Positions 5,865-10,282 of a stretch of 13,746 nucleotides of DNA are shown piece by piece (the first letter of the stretch is position 1; every line of letters begins with the position of its first letter). Location of the stretch: positions 1 through 13,746 of the forward strand of contig CAMPHU010000119.1 in assembly GCA_946886065.1 (NCBI GenBank), written 5' to 3'. The DNA is from an uncultured Massilia sp. (lineage in GTDB: Bacteria; Pseudomonadota; Gammaproteobacteria; Burkholderiales; Burkholderiaceae). Made by a program: the position numbers and the translations under genes. The notes below the pieces were generated by a model that saw only the letters and a program-made list of their open reading frames with translations, had not been told where the DNA came from and made no database searches.

Positions 5865-6512
5865 ATGCACAACCCCTCCCACCCGGCCGCCCTTGCTACG
5901 ACGCGTGCCTGGGTCCGCATGCCCTCCGGGCGCCGGCTGGACCTGCTCGATCCCACGCCCTTCGACTGGGATGACGCCGACCTGGCCCTGGGCCTGGCCC
6001 GCACCTACCGCTGGGGTGGCCACTCGGCCTGGCCGCTGCCGCTGTCGGTGGCCCAGCATTCGATCACGGTGATGCTGCTGCGCCGCGCCGCCGGGCCGGT
6101 GTCGCCGCTGGAGGAACTGCGCGAACTGCTGCACGACGCCGAGGAAGGCCTGCTCGGCTTCGATGCGATCTCGGTCATCAAGCCCTTCCTGGGCGATGCC
6201 TTCCGCGACCTGACCCGGCGCCTGGAGCACGCGGTCTTCCTGCGCTACGGCCTGCCGGCCTGGGATGCGCGCTCGCACGCCGCCCACAAGCGCGCCGACC
6301 GGCTGGCGGCGGCCACCGAGGCCGTCCACGTGGCAGGCTGGTCGATGGACGAAGTGCGCCGCACCCTCAAGATCCGCGCCGCCGTGCTCACCGAGGACCC
6401 CCTGGCCGGACGCTACGGCTGCCGCCCGTGGGAACCCTGGCCGCCCGCCCTGGCGAGCGAACGCTTCCTGGCCGAACTGGAGCGCCTCAAGCATGCCGTC
6501 CACGCCGCCTGA
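5865..6512 (+). CDS. HD-domain phosphohydrolase, YfbR-like (putative 5'-nucleotidase)
   Basis: 215 residues. The metal-binding HD pattern is visible: RTYRWGGHS (46-54), AQHS with His65, LLHDAEE with His90-Asp91 and Glu94, and KRADRLAA with Asp145. This matches the E. coli YfbR plan (RW, EHS, HDASE, K-ADAL), in which the HD site hydrolyses 5'-deoxyribonucleoside monophosphates. Substrate here is inferred only at family level: a nucleotide or similar phosphate ester, cytosolic, with a divalent metal. Start: ATG at 5865 is the first in frame and has no Shine-Dalgarno but a -10-like hexamer just upstream. A later ATG near 5919 has no better support and would remove residues ahead of the PSGRRLDLLDP block. 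The 3' end overlaps the sirtuin start by 20 nt, so the two are probably translated from one message. Confidence 0.85.
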   Translation: MHNPSHPAALATTRAWVRMPSGRRLDLLDPTPFDWDDADLALGLARTYRWGGHSAWPLPLSVAQHSITVMLLRRAAGPVSPLEELRELLHDAEEGLLGFDAISVIKPFLGDAFRDLTRRLEHAVFLRYGLPAWDARSHAAHKRADRLAAATEAVHVAGWSMDEVRRTLKIRAAVLTEDPLAGRYGCRPWEPWPPALASERFLAELERLKHAVHAA

Positions 6513-7329
6513 GGCCATCGCGCGCGCCGCCGCGCTCCTCCTCGACGCCGACGGCCTCCTGGTCGCGGCCGGCGCCGGCATCGGCGTCGATTCCGGCCTG
6601 CCCGACTTCCGCGGCGCAGCCGGCTTCTGGCGCGCCTATCCCGCGCTGGCCCGGCGCCGCATGTCCTTCCACGAGATCGCCTGTCCGGACAGCTTCGACA
6701 GCGATCCGCGCCTGGCCTGGGGCTTCTACGGCCACCGGCTGGCCCTGTACCGGCGCACCCTGCCGCATGCCGGCTTCGCGCTGTTGCGCGCCTTGGGCGA
6801 ACGCATGGTCCACGGCAGCTTCGTCTTCACCAGCAATGTGGACGGCCAGTTCCAGCGGGCCGGATTCGCGGACGGACAGGTCGCCGAATGCCACGGCTCG
6901 ATCCACTACCTGCAGTGCACCCGGTCCTGCTGCGACGCGATCTGGCCCGCCGAGGGCTTCCAGCCCGAGGTCGATGCGGCGCAGTGCCGGCTGGTGTCGG
7001 CGTTGCCGCATTGCCCGCGCTGCGGGGCGCTGGCGCGGCCGAACATCCTGATGTTCCACGACGGCGCCTGGATCGACGCGCGCACCGCGCGGCAGTTCGA
7101 GCGCCTGGCGTCCTGGCGCGCAGGCGTCACCCGACCGGCCGTGATCGAACTGGGAGCGGGAACGGACATCCCCTCGGTACGGCGTTTCGCCGAATCGCAG
7201 GGCGTACCGGTCATCCGCGTCAATCCGCGCGAGGCACAGGTAGGCAATGGCATTGCACTGGAGATGGGCGCACTCGCGGCCATGCAAGCCCTGGCCATGG
7301 CGGCCGGACTTGATCTAGCGCAACACTGA
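6493..7329 (+). CDS. Sirtuin: SIR2-family NAD-dependent protein deacylase
   Basis: 278 residues. Sirtuins remove acyl groups from lysines using NAD, releasing nicotinamide and O-acyl-ADP-ribose. Visible: the NAD loop GAGIGVDSGLPDFRG (27-41, with Gly where GAGIS has Ser); TSNVDGQFQRAGF (113-125) for TQNID; the catalytic His134 in ECHGS; two Cys pairs for structural zinc (C142 with C146 or C147; C174 and C177); RPNILMFHD (182-190) where most relatives have RP-FGE or FGD; GAGTDIPSV (221-229) in place of GTSL-V-P; and VNP (243-245). All catalytic elements are kept, so activity is likely; the acyl preference cannot be read. Start: ATG at 6493 has GGAG (6479-6482) 10 nt upstream and lies inside the end of the HD gene. 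The in-frame extension farther upstream lies entirely over the HD gene and looks like a shadow frame. Confidence 0.9.
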   Translation: MPSTPPEAIARAAALLLDADGLLVAAGAGIGVDSGLPDFRGAAGFWRAYPALARRRMSFHEIACPDSFDSDPRLAWGFYGHRLALYRRTLPHAGFALLRALGERMVHGSFVFTSNVDGQFQRAGFADGQVAECHGSIHYLQCTRSCCDAIWPAEGFQPEVDAAQCRLVSALPHCPRCGALARPNILMFHDGAWIDARTARQFERLASWRAGVTRPAVIELGAGTDIPSVRRFAESQGVPVIRVNPREAQVGNGIALEMGALAAMQALAMAAGLDLAQH

Positions 7330-7354
7330 ACGCTAAGTGACTGATTTTGTTCAG
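7326..7354 (+). terminator. Weak hairpin after the sirtuin gene
   Basis: CTGAAC (7326-7331) pairs with GTTCAG (7349-7354) around a 17-nt loop, followed by CCTTTTAG. The stem is only 6 bp and includes the stop codon. This is a possible but poor intrinsic terminator. Confidence 0.3.
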
Positions 7355-7363
7355 CCTTTTAGT

Positions 7364-7398
7364 CTATCCACAAGAAATGTGGATAAGTATGTGGAAAA
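7364..7398. promoter_or_regulatory. Cluster of three DnaA-box-like sites, copy A
   Basis: CTATCCACA (7364-7372, plus orientation, one mismatch to TTATCCACA), TGTGGATAA (7378-7386, minus orientation, exact consensus) and TGTGGAAAA (7390-7398, minus orientation, one mismatch). The first site faces the other two. Binding by DnaA is inferred from sequence only. Confidence 0.7.
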
Positions 7399-7482
7399 GC
7401 GCCACTTGACAAGCCGCAAGGGCACTACTGATGCGGGTTTCAACAAAATGCCCGTTCTACAGGCAAAAATAAACCCTAGTGA

Positions 7483-7495
7483 AATCAATCACTTG
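7483..7495 (+). promoter_or_regulatory. Candidate IHF site, copy A
   Basis: AATCAATCACTTG is a full match to WATCAANNNNTTR. It starts 18 positions after the end of the GGCA arm, exactly as in copy B. IHF consensus matches are common by chance, so the conserved position is the main support. Confidence 0.5.
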
Positions 7496-7590
7496 CACAT
7501 GCACTAGTTATGAGCAGCACATCCGTATGCGGCGCAGTCCTACAGAAATGATGAATCGGGGATAAGTCGCCAATCTGCTGTCAACTTTCG

Positions 7591-9672
7591 TCATTTCCAC
7601 GCGTTCCTGGCCCGCTCGCGCACCAGCATGCGCACACTCTCGGGAACCGGCCTGCGCTGCTCGCGCTGCTCCGCATCGAGCCAGGCACATTCCTCGAAAT
7701 GCTTGAGCATGGCCGGGGTGATGAAGCGGGTGCGCGCCGCGTACACATGGCGGTCGCCCATCTGCGACTGCTGCTTGATGAAGAAGCGGTTCGGCACCAC
7801 CAGGTGCAGGTGTTCCTTGGCGCGCGTCATCGCCACGTAGAGCAGGCGGCGCTCTTCTTCGATATCGTCCTGGCTGCCGGTGCTCATGTCCGAGGGAATG
7901 CAGCCGTCCACCACGTTCAGCACGTGCACCGACTTCCATTCCTGCCCCTTGGCCGAATGGATGGTCGACAGGATCACGTAATCCTCGTCCAGCAGCGGCG
8001 GGCCGGCGCGGTCGCTGGTCGCTTCCGGCGGGTCGAGCGTGATCTCGGCCAGGAAGGCTTCCCGGCTGCCATGCCCGCCGGCCAGCGCCGCCAGCTGTTC
8101 GACGTCGGCTGCGCGCACCTGGGCGTCGTCGTGCATGCGCTCCAGGTGCGGCAGATACCATTGCTTGACCAGCTCGATGTCGGCCGGCCAGCGCAGTCCC
8201 GGCGTGCGCAAGCGGCGGTAAAGGGCCACGAAGGCGTCCCAGTCCTCCTTGCTGCGCGCCGGCACCGCGAAGGCTTCGCAGGCCGCGGCCGGATCGGTGC
8301 TCTCGCCCACCGCGTCCAGCAGGCGGCTGGCGGTCGCCGGGCCGATGCCCGGAATCAGCTGCGCCACCCGGAAGCCCGCCAGGCGCCCGCTGGGGTTCTG
8401 GGCGAAGCGCAGCACGGCCAGCACGTCCTTGATGTGTGCCGCTTCCAGGAACTTCAGCCCGCCGAATTTCACGAAGGGGATATTGCAGCGCATGAGCTCC
8501 AATTCCAGCGCCGCGCTGTGGCTGGCGGCGCGGAACAGCACCGCCTGCTGGGTCAGGGCGACGCCGGCCTCGCGCTGCTCCAGGATGCGCTTGCAGACCC
8601 AGCGCGCCTGCTCGGCTTCGTCGGGAATCAGGACCAGCCGCGGCTTCATGCTGGATGCCTTGTCGGTCCACAGGGTCTTGGCATGGCGTTCCAGCGCGCC
8701 CGCGATCACGGCGTTCGAGGCGTCCAGGATGGGCTGGGTGGAGCGGTAGTTGCGCTCCAGCGTGATCAGCTGGGCCGGCTGGCTGAACTGCTGCGGGAAG
8801 TCGAGGATGTTGCGCACCGTCGCCCCGCGGAAGGCATAGATCGACTGGGCGTCGTCGCCGACTACCATGACCCCCTGCCCGCCCGGCTTCATGCCGGTCA
8901 GGATGGACGCCTGCAGGCGGTTGGTGTCCTGGTATTCGTCGACCAGCACGTGGTCGAACAGGGCGCCCAGTTCGGGGCCGAGTTCCGGGTCGGCCGCCAT
9001 CTCGGCCCAGAACAGCAGCAGGTCGTCGTAATCCAGCACGTTCTGCTCCTGCTTGGCGTCGACGTAGGCGCCGAACAGGGTCTTGAGCTGGGTCTCCCAT
9101 TCGCCGCACCAGGGGAAGAAGGCCTGCAGCACCTCGTCCAGCGGCGCGCGGCTGTTGACCACGCGCGAATAGATCGACAAACAGGTGCCCTTCAGCGGAA
9201 AACGCTTCTCCGTTTGCGACAGGCCGATCTCGTGGCGCACCAGGCCCATCAGGTCTTCGGAATCGCCGCGGTCGTGGATGGTGAACGACTCGTCCAGGCC
9301 GATCCGGCCCGCGAATTCGCGCAGCAGGCGCGCGCCCACGGCATGGAAGGTGCCGGACCAGGGCAGATCGATCTTGGTCTGGGCCCCGGATTTCCCGAGC
9401 AGGCGCTGCAGCACGCCGCCGGCGCGCCGCGTCATCTCATTGGCGGCGCGGCGCGAAAAGCTCAGCAGCAGGATGCGCTGCGGATCGGCGCCGGCCTGGA
9501 TCAGGCGCGCGACGCGGTGCGCCAGCGTATTCGTCTTGCCCGAGCCGGCGCCCGCCACCACCAGCAGCGGACGCGGCGTCGCGACGCCGATGTCATGCTC
9601 GACGGCCGCCCGCTGCTCGGGGTTGAGCGCGGCAAAAGGATCGTCTTGGCTGGGCGTGAGAACGGCGGACAT
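7591..9672 (-). CDS. UvrD/Rep-family superfamily 1A DNA helicase
   Basis: 693 residues. A 3'-5' ATP-dependent DNA helicase or translocase of the UvrD/PcrA/Rep type, acting in repair, replication restart or removal of bound proteins. Motifs in order: Q-motif region LNPEQRAAV (16-24); Walker A AGAGSGKT (40-47); Ia LLLSFSRRAANEM (68-80); GTFHAVGARLLR (107-118); motif II VDEYQDT (244-250); III VVGDDAQSIYAFRGA (270-284); IV LERNYRS (305-311); V LSTIHSAKGQEW (568-579); VI EERRLLYVAMTRAKE (606-620). A helix-hairpin-helix-like LIPGIGPATASRLL (439-452) lies in the 2B region. The tail after motif VI is short and lacks the PcrA/UvrD C-terminal extension. It is therefore a second UvrD-like paralogue or Rep-like protein, and I give no gene symbol. 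ATG at 9672 has no clear Shine-Dalgarno. A LexA box sits just upstream, so SOS induction is expected. Both flanks carry the repeated DnaA-box/IHF element. Confidence 0.93.
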   Translation of the reverse strand: MSAVLTPSQDDPFAALNPEQRAAVEHDIGVATPRPLLVVAGAGSGKTNTLAHRVARLIQAGADPQRILLLSFSRRAANEMTRRAGGVLQRLLGKSGAQTKIDLPWSGTFHAVGARLLREFAGRIGLDESFTIHDRGDSEDLMGLVRHEIGLSQTEKRFPLKGTCLSIYSRVVNSRAPLDEVLQAFFPWCGEWETQLKTLFGAYVDAKQEQNVLDYDDLLLFWAEMAADPELGPELGALFDHVLVDEYQDTNRLQASILTGMKPGGQGVMVVGDDAQSIYAFRGATVRNILDFPQQFSQPAQLITLERNYRSTQPILDASNAVIAGALERHAKTLWTDKASSMKPRLVLIPDEAEQARWVCKRILEQREAGVALTQQAVLFRAASHSAALELELMRCNIPFVKFGGLKFLEAAHIKDVLAVLRFAQNPSGRLAGFRVAQLIPGIGPATASRLLDAVGESTDPAAACEAFAVPARSKEDWDAFVALYRRLRTPGLRWPADIELVKQWYLPHLERMHDDAQVRAADVEQLAALAGGHGSREAFLAEITLDPPEATSDRAGPPLLDEDYVILSTIHSAKGQEWKSVHVLNVVDGCIPSDMSTGSQDDIEEERRLLYVAMTRAKEHLHLVVPNRFFIKQQSQMGDRHVYAARTRFITPAMLKHFEECAWLDAEQREQRRPVPESVRMLVRERARNAWK

Positions 9673-9696
9673 GATGGGCAGGGCTGGAAAATGCCA

Positions 9697-9716
9697 TACT
9701 GTACATTTATCCAGTC
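9697..9716. promoter_or_regulatory. LexA (SOS) box controlling the helicase gene
   Basis: TACTGTACATTTATCCAGTC matches the gammaproteobacterial consensus TACTGTATATATATACAGTA at 16 of 20 positions and has the required CTG-N10-CAG core (9699-9714). It lies 25 bp upstream of the helicase ATG and overlaps the likely -10 (TACAGT on the minus strand), an ideal repressor position. Confidence 0.8.
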
Positions 9717-9727
9717 CTGTTCAGCAA
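9698..9727 (-). promoter_or_regulatory. Candidate helicase promoter overlapping the LexA box
   Basis: On the minus strand, TTGCTG (9722-9727) and TACAGT (9698-9703) are separated by 18 bp. Both hexamers are imperfect. Transcription would start near 9691, leaving about 19 nt of leader without a Shine-Dalgarno. Confidence 0.4.
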
Positions 9728-9824
9728 GCGGGAATTTCAGCGTGGCACGATTCGGCGCCCATGTGTCGTGAAGATTTACATGCACAACACCGCCTAAGTA
9801 TTGGAAAAATCTCAAGTTTTCCGG

Positions 9825-9859
9825 ATATCCACAAAGTCTGTGGAAAACACTGTGGAAAA
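9825..9859. promoter_or_regulatory. Cluster of three DnaA-box-like sites, copy B
   Basis: ATATCCACA (9825-9833, plus orientation), TGTGGAAAA (9839-9847, minus) and TGTGGAAAA (9851-9859, minus). Each has one mismatch to TTATCCACA or its complement. Spacers of 5 and 3 nt and the orientations are the same as in copy A. Confidence 0.65.
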
Positions 9860-9928
9860 ACGGGGGCTTGACACGCCAAACACGGCCAAACATGCGGGTT
9901 TCAACAATTTGCCTATTGGGAAGGCAGT

Positions 9929-9940
9929 GTGGTTAACCAC
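9929..9940. repeat. Perfect 12-bp palindrome
   Basis: GTGGTTAACCAC lies inside copy B between the TGCC/GGCA repeat and the IHF-like site. Copy A has unrelated sequence here, so this may be an operator specific to copy B. Confidence 0.6.
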
Positions 9941-9943
9941 GAA

Positions 9944-9956
9944 AATCAAGGGTTTA
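9944..9956 (+). promoter_or_regulatory. Candidate IHF site, copy B
   Basis: AATCAAGGGTTTA is a full match to WATCAANNNNTTR, at the same offset from the element start as in copy A. The four N positions differ between the copies, as expected if only contacted bases are kept. Confidence 0.5.
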
Positions 9957-9961
9957 CGTGA

Positions 9962-10003
9962 GCCCGTACTAATTTTTGTAGCGAATCGAAAAAACTTACG
10001 GGC
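9962..10003. repeat. Spaced inverted repeat GCCCGTA / TACGGGC
   Basis: GCCCGTA (9962-9968) and TACGGGC (9997-10003) are separated by 28 nt of A/T-rich sequence. This could be a protein-binding pair or a long-loop hairpin. Its position downstream of the minus-strand 70-residue gene makes a terminator role possible but unproven. Confidence 0.35.
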
Positions 10004-10018
10004 GCACAATTATTGTGC
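10004..10018. repeat. 15-bp near-perfect palindrome overlapping a fourth DnaA-like box
   Basis: GCACAAT-T-ATTGTGC, with 7-bp arms and one central base. Its right half overlaps TGTGCATAA (10014-10022), the complement of TTATGCACA, which fits the relaxed DnaA-box consensus TTATNCACA. Confidence 0.45.
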
Positions 10019-10069
10019 ATAACCAGCGTGGCGGAAACTGCGTGAATCCGGCGGTTCAGGCCGCGCCGT

Positions 10070-10282
10070 TCACGCCATCCTGCGCGCCGGGTCGAGCAGC
10101 ACGCGCTCGATCACCTGGGGCCTGACCGCGTGACGCTTGAGGAATTCCAGGGCGCACCGCATCCCGGACTCGCGCATCAGCGCGATGCCGTGCGCGACGA
10201 TGTCGCGCTGGCGCAGGTCGCGTCTTTGTTCGAGGGGATCGGCAACCGGGGCGATGGTCGATTGGGCGGGATATGGGCTCAT
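10070..10282 (-). CDS. Small protein of unknown function (70 residues)
   Basis: I do not recognise a family. The N-terminal third (1-25) looks low-complexity and Pro/Gln/Arg-containing. The rest, from RQRDIVAHGIALMRESG through MRCALEFLKRHAVRP to VIERVLLDPARR, reads like a compact helical basic protein. No signal peptide or membrane segment is visible. It is called real because ATG at 10282 has GGAGG at 10290-10294, 7 nt upstream, and a good sigma-70-like promoter lies farther upstream. A longer frame through 10334 in another register is a shadow. It is divergent from the EAL protein gene and downstream of nothing, so it is probably monocistronic. Confidence 0.7.
   Translation of the reverse strand: MSPYPAQSTIAPVADPLEQRRDLRQRDIVAHGIALMRESGMRCALEFLKRHAVRPQVIERVLLDPARRMA

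Follow-up and report, generated by a model that had tools for sequence, protein, structure and literature searches.

A probable tandem pair of DARS2-type sites in Massilia, with related elements across the Burkholderiales

The closest described counterparts of the DNA considered here are the DnaA-reactivating sequences (DARS) of Escherichia coli, DARS1 and DARS2, together with the E. coli datA locus. DARS1 and DARS2 are described as having three DnaA boxes with equal spacing, in which box I runs opposite to boxes II and III (PMC5742627), and a head-to-head DnaA contact on boxes I and II has been described for DARS (PMC8682772). At datA, DnaA boxes lie on either side of a site for integration host factor (IHF) (PMC4585315, PMC5742627). 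The DARS2 core has been called specific to E. coli-related gammaproteobacteria (PMC4245941), a later review describes similar sequences as kept in many proteobacterial species (PMC10380432), and Vibrio cholerae has DARS-like sequences according to a review (PMC6090056). No described betaproteobacterial DARS was found among the matches listed for the open literature. Here, we describe two elements, copies A and B, which flank a UvrD/Rep-type helicase gene in a stretch of 13,746 nucleotides (nt) from an uncultured Massilia sp. (contig CAMPHU010000119.1; the whole stretch is called the window) and which are probably DARS2-type sites, arranged in tandem, that would regenerate ATP-DnaA.

Each copy opens with a core of three DnaA boxes, one forward and two reverse, separated by 5 and 3 nt (the 5/3 core; Table 1), and all six boxes have zero or one mismatch to the DnaA-box consensus TTATCCACA. 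This forward-5-reverse-3-reverse layout is common to copies A and B, DARS1 and DARS2: the DARS2 core reads TTATTCACC-5-TGTGGATAG-3-TGTGAAGAA (O157:H7 record, locus L053, 751-785) and the DARS1 core TTATCCACT-5-TGTGGATAA-3-TGTGTATTA (MG1655, NC_000913.3 813107-813141), and the box II/III pairs listed for both sites in a table of chromatin immunoprecipitation sequencing results are those read here (PMC11317965). The two E. coli cores stand four and five mismatches from our search pattern. Like DARS2, which lies between rppH and mutH, the elements combine this orientation and spacing with a non-coding location, a downstream IHF site in like orientation and a further DnaA box beyond that site. In DARS2, two IHF-like sites are separated by 3 nt, as in the described pair IBS1-2 (PMC4245941), and the forward one is at offset 74; the IHF site here has the same orientation and lies at 84 nt, about one helical turn (10 nt) beyond. 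The fourth box also differs, being a perfect forward box at +176 in DARS2 and a reverse box here, 154 nt on in copy B and 153-180 nt on order-wide. Furthermore, DARS2 is at another locus, two tandem copies are present here, and the 16-mer and TTGACA motif of the window elements are restricted to this family. DARS1, located upstream of uvrB, shares the three-box core with its orientation and spacing; the sections of the literature drawn on here describe no IHF site for it, whereas each copy here has one.

An earlier note on this DNA had reported two matching elements with these box orientations and spacers, an identical 16-mer, an IHF consensus at a common offset and diverged sequence between the parts, and all of this was borne out. 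The IHF consensus starts at +119 in both copies, and TTGACA starts 42 nt into copy A and 43 nt into copy B. Across 21 loci (20 plus the window), the within-genome identity of A and B is 0.79 in the core, 0.75 in the 16-mer and dyad and 0.70 in the IHF site, whereas the spacers reach 0.34 and 0.31 and the sequence immediately beyond the element 0.25. Copy A does lie between two convergent 3′ ends, as had been stated, with the open reading frame (ORF) of a Sir2-like protein ending at 7329 and the helicase gene at 7591. The 132-bp extent proposed in that note holds for the parts, which are in place; the element itself is longer and reaches to fourth-box positions at 10014-10022 and 7557-7565. Through box IV, the GC content of the two elements is 0.46 and 0.44, compared with 0.67 for the whole window. 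In 200 random windows generated from a first-order Markov model, a 5/3 core with up to eight mismatches occurred in none, this null having the composition of the whole window and not that of A+T-rich intergenic DNA. A search of Rfam gave nothing at gathering score in 7200-10200.

Table 1. Positions of the two elements and of the intervening gene in the window
Feature	Position	Strand or orientation	Remarks
Copy A DARS-type core	7364-7398	+	5/3 geometry; 5/3 core in 62/62 genus genomes
Copy A box I CTATCCACA	7364-7372	forward	
Copy A box II TGTGGATAA	7378-7386	reverse	5 nt after box I
Copy A box III TGTGGAAAA	7390-7398	reverse	3 nt after box II
Copy A TTGACA motif	7406-7411	+	
Copy A 16-mer ATGCGGGTTTCAACAA	7431-7446	+	
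Copy A dyad TGCC-N9-GGCA	7449-7465	+	
Copy A IHF consensus WATCAANNNNTTR	7483-7495	+	84 nt past core end
Copy A degenerate fourth DnaA-box position TTATCCCCG	7557-7565	-	offset 157/158 in genus
UvrD/Rep-type helicase gene between copies	7591-9672	-	Pfam PF00580, PF13361
Copy B DARS-type core	9825-9859	+	
Copy B box I ATATCCACA	9825-9833	forward	
Copy B box II TGTGGAAAA	9839-9847	reverse	5 nt after box I
Copy B box III TGTGGAAAA	9851-9859	reverse	3 nt after box II
Copy B TTGACA motif	9868-9873	+	
Copy B 16-mer	9892-9907	+	identical to copy A 16-mer
Copy B dyad TGCC-N9-GGCA	9910-9926	+	
Copy B IHF consensus	9944-9956	+	84 nt past core end
Copy B fourth DnaA box TTATGCACA	10014-10022	-	strong; 154 nt past core end

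The pair is a constant feature of the genus. A search for the core pattern, allowing up to three mismatches, matched in all 62 genus genomes, with a pair on the same contig and strand in 60; two matches per genome were found in 60 of the 62, three in one and one in one. The single copy is on a 3.2 kb contig of a genome that is 83% complete (G007), and the third core of G423 lies elsewhere in that genome. In G447, the two matches are on different contigs, and a second core appears beside the helicase gene once four mismatches are allowed, so that the pair is present at the locus together with an extra copy. Copy A is 3′ and copy B 5′ of the helicase in all 20 loci compared (from 20 of 25 genus genomes) and in the window, whose nearest genome among those compared is G001. 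When one mismatch is allowed, the 16-mer occurs in 23 of 41 genomes; 22 of these belong to the genus, which has 25 in this set, and the other to a different family. Two of its matches, one in G015 (contig C16) and one in G040, are not part of any such element. Box spacing and IHF position are thus conserved at related loci, and the copies form a pair at one locus (60/62) and are not dispersed, two points that the earlier note had proposed to check. It is most improbable, to the point of being negligible, that the elements are an interspersed repeat or the ends of a mobile element, as the presence of two similar, directly oriented copies on either side of a gene could suggest: the pair occupies a single locus in 60 of 62 genomes, an A and a B copy from the same genome resemble each other no more than A and B copies from different genomes do (21 loci), and losses of the helicase, described below, spared both copies, as recombination between direct repeats would not. 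A mobile repeat was rejected on the copy count per genome.

The core geometry extends well beyond the genus. When both spacers were allowed to vary freely from 0 to 25 nt (676 combinations), the order yielded 52 matches, spread over 45 of 399 genomes and 20 genera and including nine from the window's own genus, and 45 of the 52 had exactly the 5/3 spacing; because the box orientation is fixed in the pattern, this search tests spacing only. At class level, 42 of 47 such matches were exactly 5/3 (39 of 369 genomes; two of the 47 from G001). With the spacing fixed and up to three mismatches, a 5/3 core is present in 192 of the 399 order genomes. An alternative to regeneration is titration, in which the box clusters would merely hold DnaA and buffer its free level, the geometry reflecting tight cooperative binding without nucleotide exchange. 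E. coli DnaA is reported to favour box pairs 2-3 bp apart (PMC11317965), and a 3 bp pair is present in both copies; titration by chromosomal sites has also been argued for, with DARS1, DARS2 and especially datA named as titration loci (PMC12371093). By reasoning, however, a titration site could do without an inverted box I at exactly 5 nt and without an IHF site at a fixed place, and both features recur across the order and class, which makes it an unlikely account of the elements.

The position of the IHF site was followed in an order-wide set of elements, drawn from 104 loci with 110 matches, of which two were dropped (less than 210 nt from the locus end) and 103 distinct elements kept, representing 83 genomes and 27 families; the set was hand-picked among the matches listed and is not random, and kinship among its members inflates the counts and the phasing figure given below. 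Of these 103 elements of other genera, 72 carry an IHF consensus, exact or with a single mismatch, 82-86 nt downstream of the core end, whereas control bins of 5 nt hold a mean of 0.64 and at most four of the 103. The perfect consensus is found in 35 of the 103 elements and in 42 of 48 genus copies, and at 83-85 nt in 15 of 21 A copies and all 21 B copies. The exact core geometry, together with this IHF position, makes a DARS2-type function the best explanation of the elements.

Beyond the IHF site, 61 of the 103 order-wide elements have a DnaA box (zero or one mismatch) on the minus strand, 153-180 nt from the core end, and a plus-strand control over 140-184 nt gave 0 of 103. Both the IHF site and box IV are present in 52 of the 103, which span 17 of the 27 families. 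Among 28 class-level elements (one from G001), 19 have the IHF site at 80-88 nt, 20 have box IV and 15 have both. The distances from IHF to box IV fall into groups, with 37 at 69-74 nt, 11 at 80-84 and four at 92-95 in the order; in the class, 13 of 15 are at 81-85 nt, followed by 93 and 103. Their periodicity (R 0.80 at 10.25-10.75 nt and 0.78 at 10 and 11 nt) looks like helical phasing, with a broad maximum and among related sequences, and five of the 15 class distances, at 84-85 nt, are off a strict helical step. In the genus, copy B carries box IV with one mismatch in 21 of 24 cases, and at offset 151-156 a box with no more than a single mismatch is present in 17 of 20 B copies. The corresponding position of copy A has two mismatches to TTATCCACA in 22 of 24 cases, one in a single case and three in another, and in most genus copies it is the conserved non-consensus TTATCCCCN. 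A CCTACAAAA-like motif (7539-7547) also stands upstream of TTATCCCCN in most A copies, amid diverged sequence.

A strong box beyond the IHF site in copy B, and a degenerate one in copy A, recall the box layout of datA, and the elements could be read as datA-like sites, at which IHF would join DnaA bound at the core to DnaA bound at box IV, ATP would be hydrolysed and DnaA switched off. While DnaA boxes on either side of a single IHF site are indeed described for datA (PMC5742627, PMC4585315), no 5/3 core is present in the E. coli datA locus (best match, eight mismatches), and head-to-head boxes I and II are described for DARS (PMC8682772); a datA-like role is quite improbable. The earlier note had left the choice between DARS- and datA-like sites open: the DARS half is strongly supported in anatomy, by orientation, 5/3 spacing and IHF site, and the datA half is unsupported by the core geometry.

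Several observations weigh against the DARS2-type assignment. Neither uvrB nor mutH adjoins the locus, and TTGACA and the 16-mer are restricted to the family: near its offset, TTGACA occurs in nine of 12 elements of the family's other genera, and the 16-mer (up to four mismatches) in eight of 12, each with 0 of 91 outside the family. These two parts may bind a protein of their own. A 5/3 core with at most three mismatches was not found in 207 of the 399 order genomes, which may lack the core or hold a diverged one, since the E. coli cores stand at four and five mismatches and would themselves be missed by this pattern. In the order-wide set, 21 of the 103 elements lack both the IHF site and box IV, and in the genus the copy B of G433 is without an IHF match and box IV, and that of G435 without box IV. 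Although all 48 genus copies have an IHF consensus (zero or one mismatch) 82-86 nt beyond the core, the genus control bins, with a mean of 0.81 of 48, include one that reaches 24 of 48, so that this figure alone proves little and the order-wide one carries the point.

The chromosomal setting was determined in five genomes from dnaA and a dif-like site, and the pair lies at 0.74, 0.67, 0.64, 0.78 and 0.83 of the dnaA-to-dif arm in G008, G013, G023, G024 and G322, respectively, the value for G008 being less sure as its arms are very unequal. The position is away from the replication origin (oriC) in all five. No dnaA gene was found in 105 loci (104 of them order-wide), whereas nine of nine positive controls were found. 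An origin of replication was rejected on this distance from dnaA in five of five genomes and the absence of dnaA from the 105 loci. DnaA was found in all nine genomes searched, and Hda, IHF-alpha and IHF-beta in all six, so that the partners for a DnaA-ATP cycle exist.

In a DARS2-type site of this build, ADP-DnaA would occupy boxes II and III head-to-tail and box I head-to-head, and the DnaA assembly on the core would loosen ADP; apo-DnaA would then depart and take up ATP, and replication-competent DnaA would thus be regenerated after Hda-driven ATP hydrolysis. IHF, bound at its fixed distance, would bend the DNA and return the distal part with the fourth box toward the core, and this bent form may set when the site is active. 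Copy B, with core, IHF site and strong box IV, would be the full form, and copy A a form with a degenerate box IV. That the elements work like DARS is better supported than that they are DARS, and we infer binding, nucleotide exchange and timing at them from E. coli. Likewise, we infer that the effect of box IV is exerted through the bend made by IHF and that the two copies are of unequal activity. A wider model is put forward tentatively, as a possibility: a class-wide DARS2-type device of beta- and gammaproteobacteria, consisting of a 5/3 core, an IHF site about 84 nt on and a helically phased box IV (steps near 72, 82 and 93 nt), in which an IHF hairpin would dock box-IV DnaA on the core to gate ATP-DnaA regeneration; in this genus the device would be in tandem, with the fourth box of copy A turned into TTATCCCCN, and could form a two-part switch.

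We would call the tandem pair, the order-wide fixed IHF offset and the phased fourth box new, and the recurrence of the elements in many relatives suggests a DnaA-recharging control of replication timing well beyond E. coli. If the elements act as DARS, such timing spans the whole class, and natural variants could reveal which parts are key, among them the core spacing, the place of the IHF site and the helically stepped fourth box. With these variants, the switching-on of DARS2 by IHF becomes a directly testable question. The tandem pair is also a simple system, in which one step could remove both copies.

The gene between the copies was central to the earlier view of the locus, a framing that was not upheld. 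Unusual A-B distances mark five genus genomes, at 529 nt in G017, 346 in G322, 1159 in G433, 4779 in G435 and 3548 in G425. The helicase is kept in G425 despite this distance. In the other four, both cores are kept: G017 has the helicase reduced to a C-terminal scrap, G322 has no helicase match, G433 has helicase fragments only, and G435 (L300, 2722-7535) has DUF2271, PepSY-flavodoxin and ApbE family genes between the cores instead. Conversely, a core with up to three mismatches was found near none of the helicase relatives of named genomes, in the best 80 loci of a longer list with up to 4 kb of flank on each side. As four genomes have lost or degraded the helicase and still hold both cores, and none of the 80 helicase loci has a core, the helicase is incidental to the elements. 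The same results bear on the proposal that the elements are DnaA-controlled regulatory sites of the helicase and the neighbouring GGDEF-EAL gene. Copy B would suit such a role, lying upstream of the helicase between divergently transcribed genes. Copy A, however, is placed between convergent 3′ ends, the cores outlast loss, decay or replacement of the helicase, no core was found at the 80 helicase loci, and any window protein is matched in three of the 105 loci, one of them a genus locus; a regulatory role of this kind is very unlikely.

Among the matches listed for named genomes, the closest helicase relative is that of Variovorax (68% identity). G378 (locus L277), which belongs to a different genus of this family, has a helicase relative with 84% identity between two cores, and the pair around the helicase therefore extends beyond the genus. 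Two cores within about 0.4-3.5 kb of each other are seen in other genera as well (L292 of G042, L086 of G200, L218 of G352, L252 of G305 and the same L277 of G378). Among the matches listed, two genomes of one family (G281 and G340, family f37) have six and ten DARS-type cores, an apparent expansion.

TTGACA was considered as a -35 element and rejected, no suitable -10 being visible by eye, with no promoter scan run. The locus neighbours are the UvrD-type helicase, the Sir2-like ORF and the GGDEF-EAL gene. The Sir2-like ORF (6265-7329) overlaps an ORF at 5865-6512 that has no Pfam match, and its true start is probably further in than listed.

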